This document shows positions 36,943 to 53,702 of a stretch of DNA of 64,000 bases, piece by piece (within the stretch, counting starts at the first letter, position 1; each line of letters begins with the position of its first letter). A program made the translations under genes and the position numbers. Source of the DNA: Trissonchulus latispiculum (Eukaryota; Nematoda; Enoplea; Enoplida; Ironidae); the NCBI GenBank assembly GCA_030248195.1, contig JASAND010007853.1, positions 27,718 to 91,717 of the forward strand, written 5' to 3'. The notes under the pieces were generated by a model, which did not search any database, had not been told where the DNA came from, and was given only the letters and a program-made list of their open reading frames with translations.

Positions 36943-37940
36943 GTTTAGGTTAGGGTTGTGCCAGGGCCGTGAAGCGGGCTTCGGGCTCGGGCCGGGCTCG
37001 GGTTCGGGCTCGGGCCGGCCCGATACCGGCCCGGCCCGAGTTTTTAATGAGACAGCCCGGCCCGAGCCCGGCCCGAGTACTCTGTTGAGCCCGGCCCGAC
37101 TCGGGCCGTTCGGGCCGCTCGGGCCGTTCGGGCCGTTCGGGCCGCTCGGGCCGCTCGGGCCTCTCGGGCTTTCCGGGCTACTTGGGTAGTTTTGTCATTC
37201 ATTGCTGAAAAATATTGATTTTTTCGTTGTGACTTGTGGCTTCCTTTGTTCACACACTGTTGTCTTCTTCGGTGCTTATTCACACATACATACATGCATG
37301 CCAGAAGCGATACATTTGAAGTAAAATATATATAGACAAGTTTAAAACATAATTGTACTATCCAAATGCTATTAGCAAGCAGGTTGTGAAATGCTAAACT
37401 TTATACAAATTTTCTCTATCTGCAAAAAGTTATGGATTAGTTATTGTCGTCAAACAAACAAACATTTGTAAGATTCAGAAGGAACTATTTTAGTTACTCT
37501 GCTACGGCGGTAGACAAACCCTGGTTTGGTACATACAAAGAAGCCAACAAGTATTCAAGTATTCCAACTTTCCAGTTTTTAGTCAGTGGTCAATTGTGTG
37601 TTTAAATCTGCTAAATATTAGCTGCGTGAGTGATTTATTTTCATTCCTTTTTTGGATGATTCAATACTTAACTAAAAATCTTACTTGCAATCTACAAGAT
37701 ACATAGGCTTTATAGCTCCAGTGTGTGGGTCACAAATTAGTGCTCAGAGCATTATCTGAAAATTACGAAATGAAAAGCTTTTAACAATAGCTAATGTTGT
37801 ACTTGATGTTACAGCTAATCGAACCATGTCAGTTCATTTTGGGTTTACCGATGCGTAATACTAATAAATCAACTTTAGTCCAGCTAAATGTAAAGATATG
37901 CATGTGCGCAGGTCAAAACGCTCTGCAAATCTGCCACCTC

Positions 37941-38139
37941 AGTAGTATAAAAACCCAGGTTCCAGCGCACTTAGCTAATAGTTCTGGCTTCTACTGGCTT
38001 TGCGCTTTTACACACTAGTAGCTATAATGAATTCTATACCCTTAGCCTTAAATTGAAATAGCTTTTTACTGCCTAAGGATTGTAACAACTATGACCTTGA
38101 AATTCTAACTAGCCTTAAATCCTAAGTAGTATAGGAGAG
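37941..38139 (+). repeat. Polinton left terminal inverted repeat
   Basis: 199 bp, complementary to 53176-53375. By eye the outer 179 bp are identical, after which one 1-bp gap and a few changes appear before the shared inner end GTAGTATAGGAGAG. The terminal word AGTAGTATA is echoed near the inner edge. It contains TATAAAAA (37946-37953) pointing inward. Confidence 0.95.
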
Positions 38140-38423: not shown

Positions 38424-39015
38424 GGGGAAGTTGCCCAAATATGGCCAAGTGCCGAATATGGCCAACGTTGACTTTGGATAGGTGTGTAGGTTTTTTATCA
38501 AGGTGAATTGAAATAAAACTTTCGCAGTGGCGAGATATACATGTTGCTATTGGAGTGGCCAACTTTCAGCAAAAACTGTCCAGTATTAAATTAAACCAGA
38601 ATTGTTTTCTAATTTTAGTCAACTTTTGATTTTCGAACCAGTTACTTTATGCGGTCGGAAAGTTACTTTTTCAAGACAAGGATTCTCAACTGCAGTTGAG
38701 GTTTAACTAACAATTTTTATATCATTTTATAGAGAATTGTTTGCAGATTATTCCTGCAAAATGTCAAAACTTAAAGTTGACCCAGTAAATTTTTTGTGCG
38801 GAGAACTAATTTAGGTGCCATTTTCAACGATGTGCCCTAATATGGCCAGCCGAAATTTTGTGAGGGCCCAAATATGGTCAATGTAAAATCGGATATTTAA
38901 AAAGGTTTTTTTTTTGTTGTTTTTTTTTTTAGGTGTTGGTAATTATTTTTTTTTTTTATTATAAATTATTTTTTTTTTTTTTTTTTTATTTTTAATTTTT
39001 TATATTTTTTTTATT

Positions 39016-39068
<53 letters not shown>

Positions 39069-39107
39069 TTTTTTTTTTTTATTTGGCCATATTTGGGCAA
39101 CTTCCCC
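38424..39107. mobile_element. TA-flanked MITE nested in the Polinton left arm
   Basis: TA then GGGGAAGTTGCCCAAATATG with GCCA at the left is mirrored by TGGC with CATATTTGGGCAACTTCCCC then TA at the right. Internal copies of AATATGGCCA occur at about 38455 and 38840. A long T-rich stretch fills about 38905-39080. It probably inserted into the Polinton, or was carried with it, and is noncoding. Confidence 0.8.
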
Positions 39108-39399
39108 TACGTAAATTGATTAAGTAACATTTTCAAACTTTTTTCAGACTTTTTATTTACCTGACTGTTTGCCAATGGTGATAGATTCTTACCTATCTAT
39201 CTCAGCAACGTATAGATCAAAAATATTATTGCAAATTTTTTCTTCCCTTATCAACTAAAATTTTCCATTTCTTGTCTCCTATTGAATTTCTTCATCTGGA
39301 CCTTTGTATTAACCTTGAAAAGGAAGACATGTAACAAACACTTAAGGAATCCAAGATTTGTAGTTACGTACTTCAGATGACATGAGTCTCCTGTTAGCT

Positions 39400-40015
39400 G
39401 CCTTTCTGCAGGCTCATAGGAATAACATACTGAGGACTCAAAGCTGTCAAAAGTCTTTCTCCCTGCTAGCTGCCTGCTTGCTTTAAGATTTTTCTCTTCC
39501 TTGCCTTCTAGCAGGCTCATAGGAATAGCATACTGAGGACTCAAACCTGTCAAAAGTCTTTCTCTCCCTATTAGCAGCCTTCTAGCAGGCTCATAGGAAT
39601 AACACACTGAGGACTCGAAGCTGTCAAAAGTCTTTCTCCCTATTAGCAGCCTGCTTGCTTGAAAAATTTTTCTCTTCCTTGCCTTCTAGCAGGCTCATAG
39701 GAATAGCATACTGAGGACTCGAAGCTGTCAAAAGTCTTTCTCTCCCTATTAGCAGCCTGCTTGCAGGCTCATAGGAATAACACACTGAGGACTCGAAGCT
39801 GTCAAAAGTCTTTCTCCCTATTAGCAGCCTGCTTGCTTGAAAAATTTTTCTCTTCCTTGCCTTCTAGCAGGCTCATAGGAATAGCATACTGAGGACTCGA
39901 AGCTGTCAAAAGTCTTTCTCTCCCTATTAGCAGCCTGCTTGCAGGCTCATAGGAATAACACACTGAGGACTCGAAGCTGTCAAAAGTCTTTCTCCCTTTC
40001 CACCAGTGTAATATC
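39400..40015. repeat. Minisatellite with alternating 74/104-bp spacing
   Basis: GAGGACTCGAAGCTGTCAAA (variants) starts at 39432, 39535, 39609, 39713, 39787, 39891 and 39965. The spacings are 103, 74, 104, 74, 104 and 74 bp, so the higher-order unit is about 178 bp. ORFs across it repeat a YSYEPA-type peptide and are taken as artefacts of the array. Confidence 0.88.
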
Positions 40016-40164
40016 ATATTTTTAACATACTGAGGATTCATCAGCTTCTATGTCGCTTAAGTCCTTTATGAAACCTAGCGGTTGTATGTTGCAGGCCCAG
40101 GGTACTGTTATATACGTTAGACAACACTGATGGGTTTACTACAAATGCTTGGATAAATATATGT

Positions 40165-40700
40165 AATTTTGTGACGGTGGTTACGTAAGACTGGGTACAA
40201 ATACCGGATTAATTTTGGTGTCTACTGATAGAGCAAACAGTGAACCAACTTCGGTCACCTATTGATAATTATTGGTCAGCCAGCTAGCTAGTAATAATTA
40301 AATAAAAATGACAATGAAAATATGAAAACTGGTTGAAATTGGTGATTACAATTTTGTGTCAGTAATCACGTAATATTGGGACCACTTATTGGGCTAATTT
40401 TGGTGTCTACGTAATAAACACATATTAAACTAACATCGGTCTACTAATTATGTTTATTCGTTAACTATTTAGTTAGTAGTAATTAAAGTTAACAATGAAA
40501 ATATGAAAATTGATCGAAAATTGGTGATTACAATTATATGTCAGTTATTGCATAAGATTGGGAATACCTGTCAGATTAATTTTGGTTTCAACGTAATAAA
40601 CAAAGGTTAAACTAACTTCGGTCACCTAATTATGTTTATTAATTAACTATTTAGTTAGTAGTAATTAATTAAAACTGACTATAAAAATTGGTTATAAATG
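40165..40700. repeat. Tandem repeat, about 184-bp unit, three copies
   Basis: TAATTTTGGTGTCTAC (third copy TAATTTTGGTTTCAAC) starts near 40210, 40395 and 40577. Each is followed by AACTTCGGTCACCTA and TTAGTTAGTAGTAATTA-type blocks. It lies directly downstream of the - strand gene pair and could include its terminator region. Confidence 0.8.
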
Positions 40701-40783
40701 GAAAATTTTACTATACTGTTGCATACAGTAAACGAAATGTTACGGATAACATTAGTTGCACTGTTGGTATACAAGGTTGTCAG

Positions 40784-41170
40784 TTAGCCATGAAAACACG
40801 GATTTTTGAGCATTTCTGCTTCTAGCCTGTCTAGCATATTGTAGATGGGTTGAATACTTCTGCGATATCTTTTGTATTCACGTAGGTCCCTCATCTTATC
40901 CCTGACTGCATCAATTTCGTAGATATGAGGTCTTGGTGGTAATCCGCATTCACGTCTGATGAGATGTTCGTCGCCGTGACATAACGTACCGTAGGCTTTA
41001 CGAGACACCTCCTCAATGGCAGTACGTGGGTCAGGACATTGTGAGCTTGTCCAGGACTTACTGCCTATAGTCATGACTGCAACATAATGACCGGTAATCT
41101 CAATGCGAATAGGCGGACTTTGGCGCAGGGCCTTTTGTAACAGTTCGTTCAACAGGCTTCGGGCAGACAT
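40784..41170 (-). CDS. Polinton accessory protein, dsRNA-binding-domain-like
   Basis: 128 residues. The N-terminal 64 residues follow the pattern of a dsRNA-binding domain: helix 1 with LLNELLQKAL, then a proline and ITGHYVAVMTIGSKSWTSS as strands. A final basic/acidic helix, AIEEVSRKAYGTL, stands where dsRBDs have the KKxAK helix. The usual KKxAK lysines are only partly kept, so RNA binding is uncertain. The C-terminal half is charged and helical (MRDLREYKRYRR), with no recognisable fold. The ATG is 6 nt after the stop of the TBP-like gene on the same strand, so the two are probably co-transcribed. Antagonism of host RNA sensing is a speculation based on what viral dsRBD proteins often do. 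It is not shown by the sequence. Confidence 0.6.
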   Translation of the reverse strand: MSARSLLNELLQKALRQSPPIRIEITGHYVAVMTIGSKSWTSSQCPDPRTAIEEVSRKAYGTLCHGDEHLIRRECGLPPRPHIYEIDAVRDKMRDLREYKRYRRSIQPIYNMLDRLEAEMLKNPCFHG

Positions 41171-41176
41171 GATGCA

Positions 41177-41671
41177 CTAATGAACTTTAAACCTTATCAC
41201 CTTCTTATTAACTAAAGACCTTGCATCTGATAGGGCAGACTCACTTCGAGCACCAGTTAATATGACCTTGCCAGTGTGGAAAATGAGTGCAGTAACTTTG
41301 GCAATCTTACACGTGAGACCATTAAATAGCTCCGGTTCATAGCAAACTTGATGGGTATGCCTGATACTTTCATATAAATCCCTTAGGTCTATATACCTGC
41401 CAACTGAGAAGGATCCCACCAGGTTCACCACTTCGCCTTCGCGAAGAATACCGACATTAAGAGCGCCTGCTAGTTGACGAATGCACTGATTAGCTCGTTC
41501 GATTGATTTACATCCGAGACAAACAAAACTACCACTAGTGAATAATTGGAAAGTCGCCTCTTCGTGTTTCAGACTACCGCCAATAAATCCACGATAGAGT
41601 CTAATGTTAGGAATGTTCGTTAAGTGAAGTTCCCTGTCAAAGCGTCCACTGAGAACAACATTAACAATCAT
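41177..41671 (-). CDS. TATA-binding protein (TBP) homologue encoded by the Polinton
   Basis: 164 residues forming the two-repeat TBP core without an N-terminal extension. Repeat 1 is about 1-76 and repeat 2 about 82-157. Repeat 2 is unmistakable: NLVGSFSV, CYEPELFNGL and TALIFHTGKVILTGA match the eukaryotic TBP blocks NMVGSCDV, SYEPELFPGL and LLIFVSGKIVLTGA. The four phenylalanines that kink the TATA box in TBP have counterparts at F29, F44, F116 and F131. The core is shorter than cellular TBP (about 180 residues) by small loop losses and is clearly diverged, which argues against a recent host copy. It is the first gene of a - strand pair diverging from the + strand genes. Likely role (inference): recognition of the element's own TATA-like promoters with host RNA polymerase II factors. 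Confidence 0.9.
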   Translation of the reverse strand: MIVNVVLSGRFDRELHLTNIPNIRLYRGFIGGSLKHEEATFQLFTSGSFVCLGCKSIERANQCIRQLAGALNVGILREGEVVNLVGSFSVGRYIDLRDLYESIRHTHQVCYEPELFNGLTCKIAKVTALIFHTGKVILTGARSESALSDARSLVNKKVIRFKVH

Positions 41672-41848
41672 TGTTACTCCCTTGGTATCCTTATTAATAT
41701 CCTCACTTATTAATGTGGAACACTAAGGTATCACCCCACGTCTATAAAAAGCATGGTAGTAGGGCTAATACAAAGACGGCATCTAAATTCTATGGTAATA
41801 AGAAGCGAATAGAGGTACTGTTAAAGTGCGCCGTACAAGATCCTGACT
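41672..41848. promoter_or_regulatory. Divergent intergenic promoter region with TATAAAAA
   Basis: This gap separates the - strand TBP gene from the rightward genes. A clear TATAAAAA lies at 41743-41750 on the + strand, about 100 bp before the ATG at 41849. The - strand side has only AT-rich ATTAATAAG words. No start-site data are available. Confidence 0.55.
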
Positions 41849-42298
41849 ATGGCTACTGGTGCAAATTCCCAAGAAGGGCATTCCTTTTTAAACTATACGA
41901 AACTCCAATTGGTCAAAGGAGTTCCCTGTATAATCACAAGCCTTCTCATAAAATTTTTATTGTCTACGATTGTATTAGCGATTTTGTTGTCACAGCATAC
42001 CCAGTGTAAGCTACCACCACTGAAGGACTCCGTCACGGTAGACAATGCCATCTTTATTCATAATGGTTGGACTGAGCACCTTGTATCACTTGATAGTTTT
42101 CACGAGATCCGCCAATTCATATACAACTGTCTAAACTTCCAGTGCCCAGTCTATATCAACGGATCGATACCATGTCCCTACACGTCCACATATAACGAGA
42201 CAACTCTTTGCCTGGATCAAGATAAGCGTGTCCTTTGTGGCTTTGTTGGTCCTGTCAGTTTTACAGCAGACCAGATATACCAGCTCTATAGTCAATAA
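41849..42298 (+). CDS. Polinton membrane-anchored cysteine-containing protein
   Basis: 149 residues. A hydrophobic segment at about residues 25-48 (IITSLLIKFLLSTIVLAILL) is preceded by a short polar leader. This is followed by a roughly 100-residue domain with six cysteines and N-glycosylation sequons (NGS, NET). That suggests a signal-anchored or secreted protein exposed outside the cell or on a membrane. I do not recognise the family. A second frame (41713-42009) overlaps, but it starts upstream of the TATA motif and lacks features. Neighbours are the TBP gene (divergent) and a small acidic-tailed ORF. Confidence 0.65.
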   Translation: MATGANSQEGHSFLNYTKLQLVKGVPCIITSLLIKFLLSTIVLAILLSQHTQCKLPPLKDSVTVDNAIFIHNGWTEHLVSLDSFHEIRQFIYNCLNFQCPVYINGSIPCPYTSTYNETTLCLDQDKRVLCGFVGPVSFTADQIYQLYSQ

Positions 42299-42745: not shown

Positions 42746-43396
42746 ATGGAGAGAGTTAGGACACCAAAGTTTCAGCATCCGTTCACGTGTATCGTGGCGG
42801 CTCCAACAAAGGCAGGAAAGACCACCTTTGTGTCACGACTGGTAGAACATGCAGATGAAATGATATCAGAACCTCCAGAGAAGATTATTTGGTGTTATAC
42901 TGAGTGGCAAGATGCATATGATAGACTTCCCCAGGTAGAATTTATCAAAGGTCTACCGGATCTAGAGAAATTGAAAACCCCTGACGCAAAATTGGTAGTA
43001 CTTGATGATCTGATGAGCGAAATTAAGCAGCAACCTAACCTTGTTCAACTGTTCACCCGCGGTTGTCACCATTGGTCCTGCAGTGTCATCAATATCACTC
43101 AAGACATCTTCTACGATAGGCAGCGGACTAATAGGATAAATAGTCAGTATATTGTCCTCATGAAGAATCCAGCCGATAAGCTAACCCCGATGAACTTGGC
43201 AAGACAAATGTATCCAGGTAGAGTGAAAGGATTTATGGAAGCTTTTGAGCATGCCACTAGTCGACCGCATGGATATCTACTGATAGACCTAGACCAGAAC
43301 ACACCAGAAAAACTCCGCCTCAGAGGGCATATTTTCCCAGATGATCCTTACACTGACGTATATTCCATAAAAACTGACAATATCAAGAAAGAATAA
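42746..43396 (+). CDS. FtsK/HerA-type genome packaging ATPase
   Basis: 216 residues. The Walker A segment is AAPTKAGKTTF (K25, T26) and Walker B is KLVVLDDLM (D87, D88). A later stretch, SVINITQDIF, places a polar residue after a strand as the sensor in this family. Length and motif order fit the small A32-like packaging ATPases of Polintons and adintoviruses, which drive genome DNA into preformed capsids. It is the first of the closely packed rightward virion genes, and the next ATG comes 2 nt after its stop. The start follows the only in-frame upstream ATG. Confidence 0.9.
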   Translation: MERVRTPKFQHPFTCIVAAPTKAGKTTFVSRLVEHADEMISEPPEKIIWCYTEWQDAYDRLPQVEFIKGLPDLEKLKTPDAKLVVLDDLMSEIKQQPNLVQLFTRGCHHWSCSVINITQDIFYDRQRTNRINSQYIVLMKNPADKLTPMNLARQMYPGRVKGFMEAFEHATSRPHGYLLIDLDQNTPEKLRLRGHIFPDDPYTDVYSIKTDNIKKE

Positions 43397-43398
43397 TC

Positions 43399-43734
43399 AT
43401 GGATCGTTTTGAAAGAAATATCGATACACTGCGACTATTGTGTCGTTGCAAAAGTCGTAAGCAAAGAGAGGCAATTGTTCTTCATGGAAGTTCCGACCTC
43501 ATTAAAGCTATTTGTGACTGTGCAGAAAATATCCTCTCTGGCAACGTAAAGATATCCCAGAAAGACAAGAAGAGATTAGCAAGATATAAACACGCCCTAA
43601 GAGCACTACGAAAGAAACGAGTCAGTCTTAAGAAGAAGAAGAAACTAATCATTCAGCACGGAGGATTTTTACCAGCTCTCCTGGGACCTATTGTAGGTAT
43701 TGTCAGTGGACTGCTCGGAAATCTCATAAGATAA
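43399..43734 (+). CDS. Small basic protein with hydrophobic C-terminus (adintovirus pX-like)
   Basis: 111 residues. The N-terminal helical region has CRCKSRKQREAIVLHG and NILSGNVKIS blocks, then a lysine-rich stretch (LKKKKKLI). It ends with GGFLPALLGPIVGIVSGLLG, an amphipathic or membrane-active tail. This layout recurs between the ATPase and integrase genes of adintoviruses and is compared there with the adenovirus core peptide pX. DNA condensation or membrane disruption during entry are the usual suggestions. The exact role is unproven. Confidence 0.7.
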   Translation: MDRFERNIDTLRLLCRCKSRKQREAIVLHGSSDLIKAICDCAENILSGNVKISQKDKKRLARYKHALRALRKKRVSLKKKKKLIIQHGGFLPALLGPIVGIVSGLLGNLIR

Positions 43735-43749
43735 TAAAAACTGACACTG

Positions 43750-44292
43750 ATGAGCAAAGCAACGATGGAATACTCAATACTAGTTAAGCCAGACTACTTT
43801 GATGAGCACACAAGGGTGTTGGAGAAGGAAGCTAGCAATGTTCTCAAGTCCAAACTACCAGCAGATATCAAGAGTAAATTGTTTAAACAGGCAGACTACA
43901 GGCGTCGAATACTACGAGATAGACCAACGGAGATGACCGTGAAGTCCCATGCTATGCCAGACATTGTATCTACCTTACCACCAACACTGCAACAGAAGGG
44001 TAGGCATCTGATTGAACATATCATGAGTATACCAGGTCTCAAGGTTAACAGTCGAGGTGAAATAGAGTATCAGGGTCAGCCAGCAGTTGGATCTAGAATA
44101 TATGATCTGATTCACGACTTCATTCGTAACAGACCCAGTCAACCACCGGCAACAGGGTGGCAAACATTGGCAAAGGCACTAAGAGACAGCAACGTACCTC
44201 GAGAACTTATCGGAAACCCACGGTACATAAATATACAGACAGGTCAAGGAATTAGGTCAGCCCTAAGAAAACTCAAATGGAAGCGGCACTAG
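43750..44292 (+). CDS. Conserved Polinton protein of unknown function
   Basis: 180 residues, soluble and mostly helical. Notable blocks are LPADIKSKLFKQADYRRRI, IPGLKVNSRGEI and GSRIYDLIHDFIRNR, then GWQTLAKALRDSNVP and a basic C-terminus (LRKLKWKRH). Its place between the pX-like gene and the integrase, and its basic tail, suggest a virion core protein. I cannot assign a function. It overlaps the integrase start by 16 nt in another frame. Confidence 0.75.
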   Translation: MSKATMEYSILVKPDYFDEHTRVLEKEASNVLKSKLPADIKSKLFKQADYRRRILRDRPTEMTVKSHAMPDIVSTLPPTLQQKGRHLIEHIMSIPGLKVNSRGEIEYQGQPAVGSRIYDLIHDFIRNRPSQPPATGWQTLAKALRDSNVPRELIGNPRYINIQTGQGIRSALRKLKWKRH

Positions 44293-45434
44293 AGAATACT
44301 GATAATAATACTAACAATAATAATACTGCTAATGGTAATACTAATAGTGGTCATAATTCCACCTTAGAGAAGATTTACTATGATCCGCAAAGTCCTGCAG
44401 CATTTGGCGGTATTAATCGGGTGTATCAGGAAGCAAAAAGACATGGAATCTCGAGGTCCAAAGTCACTGATTGGTTGGAGAAACAGTACACTTACAGCAT
44501 CCATAAACCAGTTAGACACAGATTCCAAACGAGGAGGTATCAGGTGGCCGGTATCGACGACCTATGGCAAATAGACCTGGCAGATATGGTATCTATAGCA
44601 GACAAGAATGATGGCTACAAGTACCTATTCAACTGCATTGACGTCTTCTCCAAGTACGCATGGGTGATCCCAGTTAAAAGCAAGGGTGGTCAAGAGATGA
44701 CTAGAGCTTTTCGTAAAATATTGGCAGATGGCAGACGACCACAACACCTACAGTCAGACAGAGGCAAAGAATTTTTGAACAAAGATTTCCAGTCACTCCT
44801 CAAGGCGAACCACATCAACTTTTATACATGCAATAATCCAGTGATCAAGTGTAGCCTCGTTGAGCGTTTCAATCGAACCATCAAGACAAAGATATGGAAA
44901 TACTTTACAAAGACCAGATCGTATAGGTACATTGACGACCTTCCTCAACTCGTGGAAGGCTACAACAATGCTCGCCACAGGAGTATTCGTATGACGCCAG
45001 TGGAGGCATCGAAACCTGAAAATATGGAAGAGGTTAACAGGGCACTCAGACGTGCATCCCGTGGAGAAACCCAGCCAAGTGAAAATAAATTAAAGAAGGG
45101 AGATATGGTCCGTATTAGCAAAACAAAAGGTCTCTTTGACAAAGGATACCTCCCTAATTGGTCAGAAGAGTTGTTCCGTATCAGAAGTGTCAGGACAGGT
45201 GACCCACCCATGTACCTCCTAGAAGACTATGGTGGCGAAGAGGTGGTCGGTGGATTCTACCAGCCTGAAGTACAAAAGGTTGACGAACCAGACACCTATT
45301 GGGTAGAAAAGGTTATAAAAACCAGGCGTCGAAAAGGTCGTAAAGAGTATTTTGTCAAGTGGCTTGGATACCCTGACAAGTTCAACAGTTGGATAACTGA
45401 AGACAATGGATTTTTACCTATACCTACCCAGTAA
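44277..45434 (+). CDS. Retrovirus-like DDE integrase with C-terminal chromodomain
   Basis: 385 residues. An asparagine-rich leader (1-30) precedes a small helical domain (about 35-85) without a clear HHCC zinc site. The RVE catalytic core carries D100 (WQIDLADM), D161 (LQSDRGKEF) and E196 (KCSLVERFNR). The D161-E196 spacing gives DD35E. A chromodomain spans about 341-379 (YWVEKVIK, EYFVKWLGYP, SWITEDN). It joins the linear element ends to target DNA, giving 6-bp duplications, which matches the CACCTC observed. The chromodomain may steer insertion to modified histones (inference). It overlaps the next gene by 29 nt. Confidence 0.95.
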   Translation: MEAALENTDNNTNNNNTANGNTNSGHNSTLEKIYYDPQSPAAFGGINRVYQEAKRHGISRSKVTDWLEKQYTYSIHKPVRHRFQTRRYQVAGIDDLWQIDLADMVSIADKNDGYKYLFNCIDVFSKYAWVIPVKSKGGQEMTRAFRKILADGRRPQHLQSDRGKEFLNKDFQSLLKANHINFYTCNNPVIKCSLVERFNRTIKTKIWKYFTKTRSYRYIDDLPQLVEGYNNARHRSIRMTPVEASKPENMEEVNRALRRASRGETQPSENKLKKGDMVRISKTKGLFDKGYLPNWSEELFRIRSVRTGDPPMYLLEDYGGEEVVGGFYQPEVQKVDEPDTYWVEKVIKTRRRKGRKEYFVKWLGYPDKFNSWITEDNGFLPIPTQ

Positions 45435-46170
45435 TACAGCAGACTATCCAACAAACAAACTGCACAATTTCCGAGTCAAACTTCCTCATCGTGTTGACCT
45501 CGAAGGCGAATGGGAGGTGGCACTTGTAGAGCTCGGATATCCTGTCACCTGGTTCAATGTAGGAAACAAGGATGATGCAAAACTTGGAGTGACAGTTGGT
45601 AAGAAGACATTCCACGGGCACATCCCACTAAACAACTATGAGTCAATATTTCAACTCTGTGATGCCATCAACTATACCCTTGAGCTAACAAAGAAGATCA
45701 ATTGTGAATTGGCCTACGATGAACTTCATAGACGTGTCGGACTTAAACCTACTACCCTAGATGAAGAACCAGACTTTAAGGCGTTACACTTTAGTAAACA
45801 ACTCAAGTATATGCTAGGATACTCTGACACAAAGGTCGTACCAAAGGAAAAGACAGTCTCACCACCTAGATACGCAGTGGCCGCTAATGCACCAGACCTG
45901 AGAGGCGGACTATATTCCCTCTTCATATACTGCGACGTGGTGGCACCGCAAATGATAGGAAACACCATTGCTCCCATCATTCGTGTTGTCAGTATCGAGG
46001 GTAAGCATAATGATACTGTTGATCGAATATACAATAATCCACACTATATACCAGTGCTAAGAAAGGAGTTTGATAGTATTGAAATACATATAAAGGATGA
46101 TCACGGTATGGCGGTAGACTTTGAGTACGGAAAGGTCTTTGCTAAGTTACACTTCCGAAAGCGAAGATGA
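45406..46170 (+). CDS. Penton-like minor capsid protein, copy 1
   Basis: 254 residues. It starts MDFYLYLPSN and contains FRVKLPHRVDLEGEWEVALV followed by ELGYPVTW. This block is characteristic of the single-jelly-roll penton of Polintons and adintoviruses. The C-terminal half has LFIYCDVVAPQMIGNT, PHYIPV and VDFEYGKVFAKLHF. It should form the pentameric vertices of an icosahedral capsid. Copy 2 follows with a 4-nt ATGA overlap and the same motif order, including the M-x-FYLY start, which supports both start codons. Confidence 0.9.
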   Translation: MDFYLYLPSNTADYPTNKLHNFRVKLPHRVDLEGEWEVALVELGYPVTWFNVGNKDDAKLGVTVGKKTFHGHIPLNNYESIFQLCDAINYTLELTKKINCELAYDELHRRVGLKPTTLDEEPDFKALHFSKQLKYMLGYSDTKVVPKEKTVSPPRYAVAANAPDLRGGLYSLFIYCDVVAPQMIGNTIAPIIRVVSIEGKHNDTVDRIYNNPHYIPVLRKEFDSIEIHIKDDHGMAVDFEYGKVFAKLHFRKRR

Positions 46171-46952
46171 GTTTCTACCTGTATGTGACCGGAAAGGACG
46201 GAACCTTTGAGAACCAGCTAGCTCACCCTCTGCATCTACATGGCAGGTGGTCCGTTGCAATGGTTGACTTTATCTATCCTCACACTTGGAAAGCCATTAA
46301 TTCTAATGCAGACACATTCATCATAGTCCTATTTGAGGCAGACGAGAGAGCAGTTAGTAATATACCCAGGCGGAGATACTATAACCTTCACGATCTGATA
46401 AATACCATCAACCTTACCATTCAGTCAATTCTTAATGAACGTCAGGAATCACCTCCTATACGTTTCGTCTATGATCAGGAAAAGGATCGAGTCTACCTAG
46501 ACTTATACGAAAATCCAGAACACCTTGAAAGACCCAACTTCGGGTTTATTCAATTTGCTCCTACCATTGTACGCATGCTTGGCTTTGACTCTCAGAAATT
46601 CACAGTAGAGGATGGCAGAGATGCCCTGAGGACAAAGAAATTCTACGCACAACGTCCACCCAGCCTTAACTTTCATTATCTTCAAGTCCATTGTGATATC
46701 GTGAAAGAACAACTGGTGGGCACAACTACCGGCAACCTGCTGGCAGTAGTAAAGGCGGGTGAAGAGTATGGGAATACCATCCAGTACTCTCCTGAACCTC
46801 ACTACGTCCCTGTGAATAAGCATGTGATCAATAGCATTAAAGTCCATATAAACAATCACATTGGCAGGAGTGTACATTTTGAGTATGGTAGTATAGTTAT
46901 CAAGTTACACTTCAAGAAAGATGAGGACCAGATATCATCCAGAAACCGTTGA
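46167..46952 (+). CDS. Penton-like minor capsid protein, copy 2 (paralogue)
   Basis: 261 residues. MSFYLYVTGK at the start, LHLHGRWSVAMVDFIYPHTW, then LQVHCDIVKEQLVGTT, PHYVPV and VHFEYGSIVIKLHF follow the same order as copy 1. The two proteins are clearly diverged, so the duplication is old. They could form mixed vertices, or one may be a vertex spike base. That is inference. The 3' end overlaps the next ORF by 32 nt in another frame. Confidence 0.88.
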   Translation: MSFYLYVTGKDGTFENQLAHPLHLHGRWSVAMVDFIYPHTWKAINSNADTFIIVLFEADERAVSNIPRRRYYNLHDLINTINLTIQSILNERQESPPIRFVYDQEKDRVYLDLYENPEHLERPNFGFIQFAPTIVRMLGFDSQKFTVEDGRDALRTKKFYAQRPPSLNFHYLQVHCDIVKEQLVGTTTGNLLAVVKAGEEYGNTIQYSPEPHYVPVNKHVINSIKVHINNHIGRSVHFEYGSIVIKLHFKKDEDQISSRNR

Positions 46953-47307
46953 AGACTGGCAACTGCACCTGATACAGAGAGGGTCTGGTTTCTACGCCGG
47001 CCAAAGGTATCAGCGAGGAGATGGCCTAGGCAGCCTCTTGAGAGGTATTGGACGCTTTATTTGGCCAGTAGTACGTCGTGTAGGTCTAGAGGCAGGCAGG
47101 CAGGCCTTTCAGACAGCCGGAGATGTGGCTCGTGATTACTTGAATAGAGGTGAAGATCCAAAGGAAGCACTCAAACGACATGGGAAGGCAGCCATTGGAC
47201 GCCTGCTGGAGAACAGTGGAAAGGCAATACAGCAAGGGGAAGGCATTGGAAGCAGACCACATAGACGCAAAGTTAAGAGATTGAAGCGCGATATTTACAG
47301 CCCATAA
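46921..47307 (+). CDS. Glycine-rich, basic virion-type protein (pVI/melittin-like)
   Basis: 128 residues. RGSGFYAGQRYQRGDGLGS is followed by an amphipathic helix (LLRGIGRFIWPVVRRVGLEA), a DYLNRGEDPKEALKRHG helix and a basic tail (RPHRRKVKRLKR). This layout recurs just before the major capsid gene in adintoviruses and has been likened to membrane-lytic proteins such as adenovirus pVI. The GxG stretches could be adenain cleavage sites. The function is inferred from position and composition only. Confidence 0.72.
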   Translation: MRTRYHPETVEDWQLHLIQRGSGFYAGQRYQRGDGLGSLLRGIGRFIWPVVRRVGLEAGRQAFQTAGDVARDYLNRGEDPKEALKRHGKAAIGRLLENSGKAIQQGEGIGSRPHRRKVKRLKRDIYSP

Positions 47308-47352: not shown

Positions 47353-48672
47353 ATGGCTAAGCAAGTAGATGAACGGTCTATGCCGGGCTTCAAGTCCGAA
47401 ATGGATCTCTTCTCGCTACCTCCAACTCAGGTCAGTGTGGAGAGTGGCTACATGGCAGAAATTTATCCCCTAAATCCTGTAACCAGTAATGGTCCATACC
47501 TATTCCTCGTACCAAAGGATTCTTATATGCTTGACCTGAACCGGAACTACCTTTACCTAAAGCTACGGATAACTGATAGTGATGGAAAGGCAGTAGCAAA
47601 GGCAGCCGACGGAAGTATCTCAGTGGCACCCATCAATATGCTAGCAAAGTCATTCATTAGACGATTAGTGGTCAAACTATCCGACAAGGAAATTTACAAC
47701 AGTGGAGACCTTTATCACTATGGAGCGTACCTGGAGACTATCGCCAACTTTGGGAAAGAAGCAAAGACGTCTCACCTACAGAGTAACCTATTTGCAAAGG
47801 ATAGTGATTTCAACGATATCTCCACTACTGCAGCTAAGCATCGGGGTATACCATTTACGGATGGCCGGTATGTAGTAGTGGCAGGACCCCTTCATTGCGA
47901 CCTCTTCAAGCAAGACCGATACCTCCTGAGTGAATGCCAGTTGAGTCTGGAATTACACCGTAACAGTGACGACATCCTCCTCCAGTCAGCAACCAGTGGA
48001 TACAAACTTTTAGTCGACGATATACGTTGGTATGTGTGGAAAGTCAGACCACAAGACTCTCTCACCATGGCAATTGAGGGTGTACTAAGAGACCATGAGA
48101 CAGCCAAGTATCCAATCAGGAGGACTAAACTGGTGACAAGGCATATCGCTCCTGGTGTGCAGACTGTTGTTGAGAATTCCATATTCACCGGTCAACTCCC
48201 ACGTAGAGTCCTAGTGGCAATGGTCAAGTCAGAGGCATTCAATGGAAGTCAGAAGCATAATCCCCTCGAGTTCCAACACTGTAATGTCAGTGAGATTGCC
48301 CTAAAGTATGGTGATGAGTTTGTCCCAAAGCAGCCAATGAAGATGGCATGGGATAAGTTCCAGTATACGATGCCCTTCATATACCTCTACGAAGGCAACG
48401 ATATGGCAGGATCCACCAAGGGAGCAGACATTTCCTACGAAGACTTTGCCAAGGGATACACTATTTTTGCCTTTGACCTGACACCAGACAATATTGATAC
48501 AGGGGCAATGCAACTGATCAAGGAAGGTGATGTGTCACTGAGGATGCAACTTGAGAAGGCCCTACCAGCCGCCACTTATCCCCAGGGTGTAGAAATCATT
48601 ATATACGGAGAATTTGATAATCTCATATCAATAGACTATAATCGGACACCATTCTTTGACTACGCACTATGA
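47353..48672 (+). CDS. Major capsid protein (double jelly-roll, hexon-like)
   Basis: 439 residues, the usual length for this family. The N-terminus (MPGFKSEMDLFSLPPTQVSV) and the blocks PYLFLVPKDSYMLDLNRNYL, IRRLVVKLSDKEIYNSGD and YHYGAYLETIANFG match the adintovirus/Polinton capsid family, often labelled F54H12.2-like in animal genomes. It should assemble as pseudo-hexameric trimers. CATAAAAA (47303-47310) lies 43 nt upstream. The stop overlaps the protease start as ATGA, so the two are probably translated from one message. Confidence 0.92.
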   Translation: MAKQVDERSMPGFKSEMDLFSLPPTQVSVESGYMAEIYPLNPVTSNGPYLFLVPKDSYMLDLNRNYLYLKLRITDSDGKAVAKAADGSISVAPINMLAKSFIRRLVVKLSDKEIYNSGDLYHYGAYLETIANFGKEAKTSHLQSNLFAKDSDFNDISTTAAKHRGIPFTDGRYVVVAGPLHCDLFKQDRYLLSECQLSLELHRNSDDILLQSATSGYKLLVDDIRWYVWKVRPQDSLTMAIEGVLRDHETAKYPIRRTKLVTRHIAPGVQTVVENSIFTGQLPRRVLVAMVKSEAFNGSQKHNPLEFQHCNVSEIALKYGDEFVPKQPMKMAWDKFQYTMPFIYLYEGNDMAGSTKGADISYEDFAKGYTIFAFDLTPDNIDTGAMQLIKEGDVSLRMQLEKALPAATYPQGVEIIIYGEFDNLISIDYNRTPFFDYAL

Positions 48673-49133
48673 ATACCCGTGAGATCCTTGAGACTTTAAG
48701 GAAAGATTGCAAAGTTCCTCTCCTAGGAGTATTTCCCAGTGATAAGCTACCACGGTACCGCCCAGGATGTCTTGTTGCTAACACTGAGGCATCCGGTGAG
48801 GCTGGAGAACACTGGGTTGCAATGTGGCTAGAGGATAACAGGGTAGAATATTTTGACAGCTACGGACTACCTCCTCTCCTCTTCATGTCATACATTGGCA
48901 GGAGGGAACTACAGTATAATCGCATTCAGTTGCAAGATTTCACTACTGATGTATGTGGGGAGTACTGTATATACTTCCTTCACCACAGGTCCCGAGGAAG
49001 ATCAATGGACTCAATTGTCAACTATCTGAGGCGAAGAAGTGACACTAATGATAACATTGTCAAGACCTTTGTTGATCGGGTGACACTAGAACCCACACCT
49101 TACTGCCAGAAATCCCATAAAAAGTCTGCGTGA
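48669..49133 (+). CDS. Adenain-type cysteine protease (capsid maturation)
   Basis: 154 residues. The catalytic set is H48 (GEHWVAMW), D63 (VEYFDSYG), Q89 (RIQLQD) and C96 (DVCGEYCIYFLHH). The Gln-to-Cys spacing of 7 and the CGxxC pattern are the same as in adenovirus protease. It would cleave capsid and core precursors during particle maturation. A CATAAAAA at 49116-49123 within its 3' end may act as promoter for the next gene. Confidence 0.93.
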   Translation: MNTREILETLRKDCKVPLLGVFPSDKLPRYRPGCLVANTEASGEAGEHWVAMWLEDNRVEYFDSYGLPPLLFMSYIGRRELQYNRIQLQDFTTDVCGEYCIYFLHHRSRGRSMDSIVNYLRRRSDTNDNIVKTFVDRVTLEPTPYCQKSHKKSA

Positions 49134-49167: not shown

Positions 49168-49506
49168 ATGTTACTACTACTGAGCCTAATCGCTATAGTG
49201 TCTTCTGTAGACATTACAGAGACCGACAATGGTATTCAACTATCTCATGGCAATGTTACCACCGTGTTAGAAAGTGATCACCTATACCACCGACTAGAGG
49301 ACTGCAGTTTACACCTGTGTCGCGAGGGTGATCTAAGTCATAGATCCAGTGCCTGTCACTACATTGAATGGGATCAATGTTGGGAGTACTGTTATGACAC
49401 TGACAGACGCCTTCAGTCTATCCACGATAAGATGACTGGCTTTAAGATTGCCAACACCACAGAACTTGAATACCTACGTGGTGCCCTAAGTGAATACTAC
49501 TACTAA
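49168..49506 (+). CDS. Small secreted cysteine-rich protein
   Basis: 112 residues with a typical signal peptide (MLLLLSLIAIVSSVD, cleavage near residue 14). The mature part has six cysteines, including CSLHLC, SACHYIEWDQCWEYC, and NVT and NTT glycosylation sequons. It is unrelated by eye to the 149-residue membrane protein. No family is recognised. It could be an envelope, receptor-decoy or attachment factor, but nothing in the sequence decides this. Confidence 0.65.
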   Translation: MLLLLSLIAIVSSVDITETDNGIQLSHGNVTTVLESDHLYHRLEDCSLHLCREGDLSHRSSACHYIEWDQCWEYCYDTDRRLQSIHDKMTGFKIANTTELEYLRGALSEYYY

Positions 49507-49754
49507 GTATTTTGTCTAATGTAATGTCTTGTACATTTCGTGTAACTTTATGAAAAATCTAAATTTATAAAAGCAGCCTTTTGTAATATCACAATTTTTA
49601 AATGTCAGCTTTTTTTAAATGTACTGCTAACTTCATGATTACCGGTAAGTGTAAACTAATTTGTTTGTTGTTTGTTGCTTCATGAAATTCAAATTTTCGT
49701 GGTAATAAGAAGGGTATCACATATGTTATTCAGTTCAGTTATTCAGTATTGATA
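49507..49754 (+). promoter_or_regulatory. Upstream region of PolB with TATAAAAG
   Basis: This is the largest gap in the right gene cluster. TATAAAAG at 49566-49573 lies about 180 nt before the PolB ATG. It is the best candidate for a promoter of the replication gene. No start-site evidence is available. Confidence 0.5.
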
Positions 49755-52700
49755 ATGACTTTGCAGCGTCAAGCGGCGTCCTTACGTGGGTACTATCGGT
49801 GGTACCGCATAACACCCGAAGAGTCAACCAATGATCCTAAAGAATTCCTATTGGACTGCACCGAAGCTATTCAGAGCCTCATTGGTGACCGAGCCTTGAA
49901 GATGCAATTGAGACTGCATATTTTATTCATCAACGAGATTACAAATGAAACGATGAGCAGCTATTTTGCCAGCAAACAGACTATCATTATTCCCGGAGAA
50001 GATGTGCCTATGAACTCTATGATTAACCGCATCCTCACCAATATCGAAGAATTCCAACGCAATGGATCAGGATGGGTGATCGATCATGTGCGATACCTGG
50101 ATATTCACCTGGCCAAATACCGTCCACTATATGGATCAACATACGTACCTCTACCGAAGAAACTCCAGGACAAAACAGCAATCATCAATCCGAAGAATAC
50201 TGACAATAGATGCTTCATGTGGAGTATCCTGGCAGGTCTCCATCCAATGAAGACAAATGCTAATAGAGTTTTCAAATATCAACAATTTGTGGATGAACTG
50301 AACTTTGAAGGATTGGAGTTCCCAATGAAACTGACTGATATCCCGAAGTTTGAACGACAGAATGATGTCTCCGTCAATGTCTATGGATACGACAGATCAG
50401 TCCACATCCTATACCTATCCAGAACCAAACGAGAGAAGCATCTTCATCTACTCCTACTGGATAATCGGCACTATTGCCTAATCAAGAATCTTGGAAGACT
50501 CCTGCATGATCAACGGAAGGACAGACACAGAAAATACTTTTGTAATCATTGCCTGTTTCCATTTCCAACAGAAGAAAAGTGTAACAATCACCAGAAACTT
50601 TGTAGTACTGATAATTTACAGATAACAGTAATGCCATCGTCAACTAAACTAAAATTTCAGAATGATCATAGACGTTTAATGCGACCTTATGTGATTTATG
50701 CAGATTTTGAGTGTTTACTGGAGAAGATAGATACTTGTCAACCCAACCCGTATTCCTCCTATACGAATAGGTATGAGAGTCATAGGCCATGTGCATTTGG
50801 GTTAGTAGATGTGCTCCAGTGTTGTGAGGGGATGCCTGTTGTCCGAGGTGAACCATTGATTTACCGTGGGGAGGACGCAGTGCAACAATTCCTTAGAGCC
50901 ATCCTACTGAAAGGCAAACAATATCAGGAACGATTGAATAAATACCCACGATTACCTAAGCGACTCCTTCAGCATGGCACTGAATGTCACCTGTGTTATG
51001 GCACGATTGCAGATGGGGAATCAACCCGAGACCATTGTCACATTTGTGGCACCTTTAGGGGGTATGCCCATAGGCGGTGTAACCTTAAGTATAAACTGGG
51101 TCGGACGGTAACTGTAATGTTCCATAACCTGAGACGATACGACGGACACCTAATTATGCAAGAGATTGGGAAGATTAGCAAAGAGTTTAAGTTAGACATC
51201 ACCTGTGTACCGAAGGGATTAGAAGACTACCTTTGCTTTGAACTGAATGTCGAACAGGAGTGGCGTATTAGATTCATCGATAGTTACCAGTTCCTGAATA
51301 GATCGTTGGATACACTGGCAGACGGACTGACTGATGAAGACTTTACATTCACATCTAGTGTCTACGGAGATAAGCTTTCACTGATGAGAAGAAAGGGAGT
51401 TTACCCATATGAGTACATGGACTCGTGGGATAGATTTAGTGAGACTCAGTTACCACCCATTGAAGCCTTCCACAGCACACTAACTGATAGCGACATTGAC
51501 ATCCGAGACTACGAGCATGCAAAGACTGTGTGGAATGAGCTAGGTATAGAGAATATGGGACAGTATCATGATGAATACTTGAGAACAGATGTCCTACTAT
51601 TGGCAGATGTGGTAGAGAACTTTCGCAAGACTAGTCTGAAAACGTATGGCTTAGATCCTTGCCACTACTGTACTCTACCTTCATTTGCCTGGGACGCCTG
51701 CCTCAAGTATACTGGACAGGAGTTAGATCTTTTGACTGATCCAGATATGTACAAGTTTTTTGAAGATGGTATAAGAGGTGGGGTGGCAATGGTTGCCCAA
51801 CGGTACGCAAAGGCCAATAACCCACTGCTCGATGGGTATGATCCCAAGCAGCCAACCTCTTATATCACCTACGTGGACATGAACAATCTATATGGTTGGT
51901 CAATGGTCCAGAAACTCCCTGTGCGCAACTTTAGGTGGATGGTCAACTTGGAGCAATGGAGAGACGTTCCATGTATCCTTGAGGTTGACCTTGACTACCC
52001 ACAGCATCTACACAACGCTCACAATGACTACCCACTTGCACCCGAGAGAATTACCATCACTGAGCAGATGATATCGCCATACAGTAAGGAGCAAGGAGGG
52101 TACATGCGGTGTGAGAAGTTAGTACCTAACTTACGCAATAAGACTCATTACATCGTGCACAAGCATACCCTGGAGCAATACATAGATCATGGCTTAGTGA
52201 TTAGGAAGATACATAGAGGGGTGACCTTTGAGGAGGAGGAGTGGATGAAGCCTTACATTGAGTTGAATATGGTTAAGAGGGCAGCGGCGAAAAGTAAGTT
52301 TGAAGAAGACCTTTACAAACTGATGAACAATGCGGTATTCGGGAAAACGATGGAGAACGTCCGCAACCATGTAGATGTTAGACTAGTCACGTGCCCGGAG
52401 AAGTTTGAGAAGTTAGTTGCAAACCCTAGGTACAAGGCATGTGAGGCATTTTCAGAAGACCTGGTAGCAGTGCAGATGCAGAAACGTACAGTCAAGCTAT
52501 GTAAACCCGTATATGTAGGATTCACTGTACTTGAACTATCAAAATACCTCATGTACAACTTTCACTACAACTACATGAGGCAGAAGTATGGTGACAGGGT
52601 TAGCTTACTGTACACAGACACGGACAGCTTTTGCTACCATGTGACAACCCCTGATATTTACCAGGATATGAGAGAGGACATTAACCTATTCGATACCAGT

Positions 52701-53078
52701 AACTACCCTAAGGACCACCCACTTTATAGCAGTACTAACAAGAAGGTGATAGGAAAGATGAAGGATGAAGTAAAGGGTAAGCCAATAAGCGAGTTTGTAG
52801 GGTTAAGGGCAAAGATGTACAGCATCAAGTGTGAAGGTGATGATAAGACAGCGGCAAAGGGACTTAATAGGTCAGTTAGACTAAGGCACGAAGATTATAA
52901 GCGAATATTAATGCAGGGAGGTAGAACCCGACATATCATGAGCAGTATAGATAGAAGAGGTCATCAACTGACTACAGTGCAGCGGTGTAAGGTAGGATTA
53001 AGCGCCTATGATGACAAACGTTATATACTTGACGATGGTATCCATTCATTTGCATATGGGCATGTATTGATTGAATAA
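49755..53078 (+). CDS. Protein-primed DNA polymerase B (Polinton type)
   Basis: 1107 residues from the first ATG at 49755. The N-terminal region has C153 in NRCFMWSILAG and H239 in NRHYCLI, a Cys-His pair like that of OTU/papain-type proteases. A zinc-finger-like C-x2-C from C263 follows. Exonuclease motifs are YADFECLL (D317, E319), HNLRRYDGHLI (from H457) and YLRTDVLLLADV (Y608, D612). Between Exo I and Exo II, about 411-450, sits a CHLC plus DHCHICG with RGYAHRRCN unit typical of endonuclease-VII-like zinc folds. Polymerase motifs are DMNNLYGWSM (D708), KLMNNAVFGK (from K855) and YTDTDSF (D955, D957). It replicates the linear genome from a terminal protein. No break is seen. Confidence 0.95.
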   Translation: MTLQRQAASLRGYYRWYRITPEESTNDPKEFLLDCTEAIQSLIGDRALKMQLRLHILFINEITNETMSSYFASKQTIIIPGEDVPMNSMINRILTNIEEFQRNGSGWVIDHVRYLDIHLAKYRPLYGSTYVPLPKKLQDKTAIINPKNTDNRCFMWSILAGLHPMKTNANRVFKYQQFVDELNFEGLEFPMKLTDIPKFERQNDVSVNVYGYDRSVHILYLSRTKREKHLHLLLLDNRHYCLIKNLGRLLHDQRKDRHRKYFCNHCLFPFPTEEKCNNHQKLCSTDNLQITVMPSSTKLKFQNDHRRLMRPYVIYADFECLLEKIDTCQPNPYSSYTNRYESHRPCAFGLVDVLQCCEGMPVVRGEPLIYRGEDAVQQFLRAILLKGKQYQERLNKYPRLPKRLLQHGTECHLCYGTIADGESTRDHCHICGTFRGYAHRRCNLKYKLGRTVTVMFHNLRRYDGHLIMQEIGKISKEFKLDITCVPKGLEDYLCFELNVEQEWRIRFIDSYQFLNRSLDTLADGLTDEDFTFTSSVYGDKLSLMRRKGVYPYEYMDSWDRFSETQLPPIEAFHSTLTDSDIDIRDYEHAKTVWNELGIENMGQYHDEYLRTDVLLLADVVENFRKTSLKTYGLDPCHYCTLPSFAWDACLKYTGQELDLLTDPDMYKFFEDGIRGGVAMVAQRYAKANNPLLDGYDPKQPTSYITYVDMNNLYGWSMVQKLPVRNFRWMVNLEQWRDVPCILEVDLDYPQHLHNAHNDYPLAPERITITEQMISPYSKEQGGYMRCEKLVPNLRNKTHYIVHKHTLEQYIDHGLVIRKIHRGVTFEEEEWMKPYIELNMVKRAAAKSKFEEDLYKLMNNAVFGKTMENVRNHVDVRLVTCPEKFEKLVANPRYKACEAFSEDLVAVQMQKRTVKLCKPVYVGFTVLELSKYLMYNFHYNYMRQKYGDRVSLLYTDTDSFCYHVTTPDIYQDMREDINLFDTSNYPKDHPLYSSTNKKVIGKMKDEVKGKPISEFVGLRAKMYSIKCEGDDKTAAKGLNRSVRLRHEDYKRILMQGGRTRHIMSSIDRRGHQLTTVQRCKVGLSAYDDKRYILDDGIHSFAYGHVLIE

Positions 53079-53175: not shown

Positions 53176-53375
53176 CTCTCCTATACTACTACGGATTTTA
53201 AGGCTAGTTAGAATTTCAAGGTCATAGTTGTTACAATCCTTAGGCAGTAAAAAGCTATTTCAATTTAAGGCTAAGGGTATAGAATTCATTATAGCTACTA
53301 GTGTGTAAAAGCGCAAAGCCAGTAGAAGCCAGAACTATTAGCTAAGTGCGCTGGAACCTGGGTTTTTATACTACT
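53176..53375 (-). repeat. Polinton right terminal inverted repeat
   Basis: 200 bp, complement of 37941-38139, ending TATACTACT at 53375. It begins only 36 nt after the PolB polyadenylation signal, so almost no space is lost on this side. The left arm, by contrast, has 2.6 kb of noncoding sequence. Confidence 0.95.
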
Positions 53376-53504
53376 CACCTCTAGTGGGGAGATGTGTGGA
53401 AGGGATAATAAATTGGATAGTGATGAAATGGATGAAATATTTGAAAGGGAATGGATTGGTGTTGGGGTGTTATTTTTACTTCAGAACTGGCCACGAGCAG
53501 GCCA

Positions 53505-53702
53505 GAGTGGTACCCAGGTCCAATACAAACCACCATCTCAATAGCTTCATCCCATTCGCTACCCGCCTTTGGAACAGCCTGCCTGGGGACATTGTCTTGG
53601 AGATGGATCCCACCACCTTCCGACGCAGAATTCACCGCCACCTACTCAACAACAACTGATCAGCCATGGCTGTCTTCATCTTAAAGTATCTTAAAGTAAG
53701 TA
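53505..53702 (+). pseudogene. 3' end fragment of a CR1-like LINE
   Basis: The frame encodes NSFIPFATRLWNSLPGDIV and a helical RRRIHRHL end, then a stop. This is the same C-terminal block as in the LINE at 4049-6851, but a different family by sequence. ATCTTAAAGT occurs twice after the stop, like the simple-repeat tails of CR1-type elements. It lies inside the hAT-like element, right of the Polinton. Confidence 0.75.

Follow-up and report, generated by a model that had tools for sequence, protein, structure and literature searches.

The open reading frame at 41177-41671 of the window (the whole 64,000-nucleotide stretch of DNA analysed here) encodes a two-lobe TATA-binding protein (TBP) with the saddle fold, and this gene belongs to a Polinton (Maverick) lineage in which it is kept by selection. 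As an initiation factor TBP is nearly universal, and few eukaryotic proteins are more conserved. Relatives of the gene occupy hundreds of places in the host genome, which suggests that these elements may steer their own promoter use; a TBP would let small Polintons steer host Pol II.

The frame fills 41177-41671 exactly on the minus strand and specifies 164 aa; read on the plus strand, the same interval contains many stops, and when the bases of 40700-41750 are shuffled, 0.1% of 2000 shuffles yield an ORF of such length. Against Pfam PF00352 the product scores 101.9 bits (E=1.7e-29; cut-off 22.9) in two matched stretches, which bears out the preliminary description, where both TBP repeats had been recognised and this profile search proposed; two divergent copies score 90.8 and 88.3 bits. 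The best PDB sequence match is an archaeal TBP (2z8u, 1.9e-16), and yeast TBP is matched at 3e-14. In the structure prediction, likewise proposed beforehand, the AF2 model, whose input alignment contained TBPs, has a mean pLDDT of 87.9 (lower, 63-72, over residues 21-40) and is aligned by Foldseek to human TBP (7egb) at TM 0.92 (E 4.5e-13). The homology is far beyond chance; a missing TBP match by HMM or fold, named at the outset as fatal to the claim, was looked for, and both methods returned the match.

Counterparts of the four DNA-kinking phenylalanines, also claimed earlier, are present as F29, F44, F116 and F131. Among 21 open copies including that of the window, F29, F116 and F131 are each conserved in 21/21, as is N83, and F44 is conserved in 19/21, with Leu in the remaining two (the 64% copies). 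The first alignment placed Y26, which is also found in 21/21 copies, in the F29 column. A gapless internal register between the lobes, with an offset of 87, supports F29, and related families show YNPKRF, YDPRRF or YTPERF in this region. Register, copies and related families together favour F29 over Y26 as the kinking residue, short of proof.

The element in which the gene lies is 15,435 bp long, with 179-bp terminal inverted repeats (TIRs), 100% complementary, at its ends and a 6-bp target-site duplication (TSD), CACCTC, on either side; its earlier placement inside a unit with perfect target duplication is therefore correct. AGTAGT/ACTACT-type ends, a 6-bp TSD, a family B DNA polymerase and an rve integrase mark the element as a Polinton/Maverick. 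Its features are as follows.

37935-37940: left TSD, CACCTC
37941-38119, plus strand: left TIR, 179 bp, starting AGTAGT, with TATAAAAA at 37946
39308-40668: left-arm tandem repeats, 4 x 178 nt (39308-40018) and 3 x ~184 nt (40151-40668)
40784-41170, minus strand: u128, 128 aa, 6 nt downstream of the TBP stop
41177-41671, minus strand: two-lobe TBP gene, 164 aa
41743-41750, plus strand: TATAAAAA box between TBP and the rightward genes
41849-42298, plus strand: p41849, a 149-aa ORF with no function assigned
42746-43396, plus strand: A32-like packaging ATPase (Pfam Pox_A32 0.058, below cut-off)
43399-43734, plus strand: p43399, a 111-aa ORF
43750-44292, plus strand: p43750, a 180-aa ORF
44277-45434, plus strand: integrase (rve core 5.7e-15, chromodomain 7.1e-10)
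45406-46170, plus strand: first of two paralogues, putative minor capsid protein by position only
46167-46952, plus strand: second paralogue, 30% identical to the first
46921-47307, plus strand: p46921, a 128-aa ORF
47353-48672, plus strand: major capsid protein (MCP), double jelly-roll-like (Pfam 0.016, below cut-off)
48669-49133, plus strand: adenovirus-type cysteine protease (weak matches: S273R 0.026, adenovirus protease 0.71)
49168-49506, plus strand: p49168, a 112-aa ORF
49749-53078, plus strand: family B DNA polymerase (PolB), 1109 aa (Pfam DNA_pol_B_2 1e-16)
53197-53375, minus strand: right TIR, 179 bp, ending ACTACT
53376-53381: right TSD, CACCTC

One minor capsid gene is usual, whereas two adjacent paralogues stand here at 45406-46952. 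The tandem-repeat arrays sit between the left TIR and u128, with a T-rich tract at 38906-39106; GC-rich GGGCC repeats flank the element on both sides (36964/53863), and by eye a retroelement-like ORF tail follows directly after the right TSD (53384-53659). The best 120 matches of the window PolB include proteins of Gigantopelta, Actinostola, Elysia and Haliotis. Vertebrate Polintons/Mavericks, in the part of PMC8097293 available, share with this element the 6-bp TSD, TIRs, rve integrase, PolB, capsid module and accessory flanks, and AGTAGT/ACTACT ends, identical to those of this element, are the most common among them. In contrast, the main text of that paper nowhere uses the words TATA, TBP or 'transcription factor', whereas in the window family TBP is a regular gene with a co-travelling ORF.

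The host assembly (733.8 Mb, 21,732 contigs) contains at least 150 matches to the window TBP (the best 150 of 868 candidates), ranging from 100% down to 58% identity, and in 121 of these 150 the matched part is free of stops. MCP has at least 96 matches (the best 96 of 1650 candidates), and in 70 of these 96 a TBP match lies upstream of MCP on the opposite strand, at a distance of 5.8-7.4 kb in 67 pairs and of 2.9, 3.6 and 8.5 kb in the others. For the 26 unpaired MCP copies, 12 expected TBP sites of 2.5 kb were sought; among the 11 that exist (L052-L062), none has TBP, two have pieces of the neighbouring genes, and none shows a complete left arm lacking TBP. Among the 70 paired copies, 18 combine a TBP that is 68-73% identical to that of the window with an MCP that is 94-98% identical.

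Selection on the gene was estimated codon by codon, with stop codons excluded, in 20 diverged copies (L032-L051) compared with the window. TBP dN/dS is 0.08-0.32 at 15 of the 20 loci (dS is saturated at the other five), values that are unreliable in the nine of these 15 comparisons with dS above 1.5; in the six comparisons with dS 0.13-0.52 the ratio is 0.11-0.32. The TBP median is 0.185, taken over 80 pairs with dS 0.05-1.5. Lower medians are found for protease (0.156), integrase (0.137), ATPase (0.052) and MCP (0.029), and higher ones only for u128 (0.249), p41849 (0.225) and PolB (0.198, from two pairs only). TBP is a maintained gene, yet it is among the less constrained ones of the element.

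These results bear on whether TBP is a captured host gene without function, be it a passenger acquired recently or a host insertion, unrelated to the element, in the window copy. Diverse accessory-region ORFs are common in Mavericks, according to the part of PMC8097293 available, and would allow for such a passenger. However, the gene is multi-copy and positionally conserved, its dN/dS is low, and the Polinton TBPs form a clade separate from the host TBP. Capture of this kind is accordingly very improbable; for the window TBP lineage it is refuted by the co-location in 70 of the 96 listed MCP copies together with the low pairwise dN/dS, which equally uphold the earlier statement that TBP is part of the mobile unit. 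A host insertion absent from other copies had been foreseen as the opposing outcome; 70 of the 96 listed MCP copies have the gene in place, and relatives are also present in other Polinton families of this genome.

In the available part of PMC7221094, two C-lobe glutamates of TBP are described as contacting TFIIB and a basic N-lobe cluster as binding TFIIA, Mot1, TAF1 and Brf; in viral TBPs both surfaces have diverged, and a viral TFIIB mostly accompanies them. The YEPELF loop of the window family would correspond to the TFIIB contact and the helix that carries AARKYARI in host TBP to the regulator surface. The loop glutamates E112 and E114 are present in 21/21 and 19/21 open copies, including the window, and AARKYARI is absent from the corresponding helix of all 21. 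Given that mapping, the window family (family I; the labels I-V belong to this analysis) would have kept the TFIIB contacts and lost the RKYAR residues. The helix segment carries a net charge of +1 or +2 in these 21 proteins, and of +2 in yeast TBP, so the loss concerns particular basic residues and not net charge. Other families have an altered TFIIB loop: FTPEMF, LESELF and LEYEIY (II, IV and V). In IMG/VR rows L013, L015, L016 and L019 the pattern is reversed, with RKY kept and the TFIIB loop altered (FTPDLF or YEDELF).

Viral TBPs are already known from large dsDNA viruses. Those of eukaryotic dsDNA viruses, as far as covered by the part of PMC7221094 available, resemble the window TBP in having two lobes, conserved kinking Phe and a lost N-lobe regulator signature. 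They differ in that conservation at C.L3.2 is ~40% and nearly every one of the viruses has a TFIIB-like protein, whereas the window family appears, under the mapping above, to keep both glutamates (21/21 and 19/21), with no TFIIB seen: among 16 element ORFs scanned, no Pfam match to a TFIIB-like gene was obtained at E<=0.1. The hallmarks of an orthogonal viral TBP-TFIIB system, a viral TFIIB and altered C-lobe glutamates, are thus not those of the window element, and no RNA polymerase gene was seen in these small Polintons.

Promoter-like boxes are found in the element. The motif ATAAAAA[CG], chosen after looking at the sequence, occurs six times on the gene strand to the right of TBP (shuffles 0.78 +- 0.95) and once on the opposite strand (shuffles 0.26); across 20 related, non-independent loci the counts add up to 80 on the gene strand and 4 on the other. 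These boxes stand 16-105 nt before six annotated starts. Four of these boxes, situated at or close to where the preceding gene stops, might instead be poly(A) signals; such a role is hardly possible for the box at 41744, because no rightward gene precedes it, or for that at 45315, because it lies ~120 nt before the integrase stop. A second motif, (T/C)ATATAA(A/G)CA, precedes the ATPase gene at the corresponding alignment position in 13 of 15 copies, the exceptions being L042, which has TATATAAATA, and L032, which has the box only in nearby repeats. The count of TATAWAWR in the element is not significantly raised (9 vs 6.0 +- 2.9 by chance), and TATAWA is absent within 160 nt upstream of TBP itself.

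The best explanation, held with slightly more confidence than doubt, is that TBP serves as the element's own core-promoter factor, bringing host TFIIB and Pol II to the TATA-like boxes of the element under less host control. The protein would bend the boxes upstream of element genes, and its conserved YEPELF loop would hand them to host TFIIB and Pol II. Key helix residues used by host TFIIA, Mot1, TAF1 and Brf appear to be missing from it, which could make element transcription partly independent of TFIID and host TBP regulators. Virus-controlled promoter choice, as suggested in the preliminary description, is likewise a hypothesis. The question raised is whether an element TBP initiates with host TFIIB, free of control by host TFIIA, TFIID or Mot1.

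A match to u128 adjoins TBP in all 20 copies examined (L032-L051); its frame is broken in 7 of these 20, whereas that of TBP is open in every one. The protein has no Pfam, NCBIfam or PHROG match, its best PDB value is 0.1, and its structure model is poor (pLDDT 41.7). To the right of TBP, L033 and L047 are 93-100% identical in 30 of 34 bins of 250 nt (the others are at 68, 84, 86 and 90%), while u128 and most of TBP are 54-66% identical and the left arm beyond is at ~52%. L032 and L048 likewise are 60-70% identical over u128 and TBP and 91% in a single bin to the left; to the right most bins reach 90-98%, with lower blocks (56-86%) farther out. In L047 and L048 a junction lies inside TBP near residues 50-60: before it, both share 94-100% nucleotide identity with L032, falling to ~60% just after, and compared with the window they are 64-79% identical before it and 89-100% after.

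In these two pairs the identity profiles show that u128 and most of TBP are exchanged as a unit between otherwise largely alike elements. Other blocks are also mosaic in the compared pairs, TBP-u128 being among the most divergent, so recombination is general and not confined to this cassette. The joint exchange suggests that u128 may be a partner or modulator of TBP. L033 and L047 have different cassettes and much the same promoters; a change of promoter specificity therefore does not explain the swap.

Cassette exchange and relatively fast evolution resemble the behaviour of conflict genes, and would fit a TBP aimed at the host, one that occupies host TATA promoters or TFIIB and thereby lowers or redirects host transcription with u128 as helper. 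DNA-binding and TFIIB-contact residues that are kept beside regulator-contact residues that differ are also in line with such a role. Pairwise dN/dS, however, averages well under 1, the DNA-face and stirrup residues are nearly constant, and the TATA-like boxes of the element are strand-biased, which makes an attack on host transcription unlikely compared with service to the element's own promoters.

TBP is not restricted to the window family. The host TBP is a separate, canonical gene on contig C14517, 76/69% identical to yeast TBP; it belongs to the same protein family as the Polinton TBPs but is split over at least two exons and branches apart from them. A yeast TBP query finds at least 148 further places in the assembly (from the best 150 of 654 candidates), 134 of them stop-free over the stretch that matches. 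Thirteen of the 148 are among the listed window-TBP matches and 135 are additional, some of which may still be of the window's family, as the comparison list holds the best 150 of 868. Six of the further places, found or chosen because TBP is present and so giving no measure of TBP-less Polintons, were examined (L065, L066=L070, L067, L068, L069 and L071), and all have at least one match to a window Polinton protein within 5 kb, although at L069 this consists of protease pieces only.

L066 is the clearest case, with the order NADAR, TBP, capsid region and the ATPase upstream; its NADAR-domain protein (L066:1967-2479, minus strand; PF08719, 1.1e-40) lies directly before TBP and represents a second Polinton family. 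NADAR and TBP share one open frame of 317 aa in L071 (2367-3317, minus strand). A 402-aa ORF in L067 (2330-3535, minus strand) has TBP as its N-terminal half and, as its C-terminal half, a sequence with faint similarity to the minor-capsid-like paralogues (8.1 bits). MCP, protease and TBP follow one another on one strand in L068, and L069 has two identical TBP ORFs in inverted orientation. All five TBP ORFs scanned from these families match PF00352 at 3.4e-24 or better, and the gene, which the preliminary description proposed to seek in Polintons of related species, is thus found in other Polintons of the same genome.

The Polinton TBPs form one clade in a tree of all rows (86/92), and nine of them do so at 100/99 after the longest branches, PolIII_L067 and P0138, are dropped. 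The host TBP groups with insect TBPs at 90/90 in the all-row tree, not in the tree without these two branches. This grouping and the animal proteins among the PolB matches are the grounds for regarding the host as probably an animal. Origins of the Polinton clade as sister to the host TBP, to all sampled eukaryotes or to two putative giant-virus IMG/VR TBPs are indistinguishable (AU p 0.24-0.34). A broader proposal, which is tentative and stays below even confidence, is that TBP is an ancestral, core-like Polinton gene in this animal lineage which has diversified into four or more families whose partners differ (u128, NADAR, a capsid-like half), and that co-resident elements trade TBP-u128 cassettes to switch transcription partners or regulators. 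In that case, elements in competition would each be evolving an initiation system of their own around host Pol II. The hundreds of diverged TBPs beside one canonical host gene are a natural series of changeable TBP surfaces.

The partners in these families also bear on a DNA-bending, architectural role in replication, packaging or integration, in which TBP would bind TATAAAAA at both termini or be borne in the particle. TATAAAAA does occur at bases 6-13 of both element termini, the TBP of L067 is fused to a sequence with slight likeness to the minor-capsid-like paralogues, and that of L066 lies between NADAR and capsid-region genes. Yet the TFIIB-contact loop kept in the window family would lack a role, the capsid resemblance is just 8.1 bits, and participation in protein-primed replication has already been proposed for the end repeats (PMC8097293, in the part available). 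Such a function is quite improbable, and the core-promoter role stays preferred.

Beyond the host genome, a search for close TBP relatives in a set of 5.8 billion proteins gave 66 candidates, none at E<=0.001, and a four-row TBP profile retrieved mostly generic fungal, plant, insect and archaeal-type TBPs (best 120 of 7952). Single element proteins had no match in the viral contigs searched; a PolB pattern together with a PolB alignment found one viral contig, without TBP in the 15,558 of 17,398 bases examined. Among phage records PolB had no match, and a halovirus TBP came up at E=0.4. Nine short contigs from prokaryote bins have PolB relatives, and none of the nine has TBP. These Polinton-type polymerase contigs in prokaryote genome bins (L003-L011) are probably eukaryotic contamination; metagenome contig L010 carries relatives of the window ATPase, MCP, protease and PolB.

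The TBP of haloarchaeal virus HJTV-2 and those of IMG/VR contigs are virus-borne, like that of the window, but the stretches concerned (L012-L023) have no match to window Polinton proteins except TBP at E<=1e-3, and their TFIIB loops read YEPEQF, FTPDLF or YEDELF in eight aligned rows, against YEPELF in the window. A paper on an alga places TBP genes in possibly mirusvirus-related elements, in the part of it available. No description of TBP in Polintons, Mavericks, polinton-like viruses or adintoviruses was found in the literature searched, the coverage of which is incomplete, so that a prior printed account is possible.

Inverted pairs of TBP or of MCP genes, with roughly 0.8-5 kb between the members, occur in L069 and in contigs C4513, C3106, C4808 and C18705 of the host assembly (G000), and look as if elements form inverted dimers.
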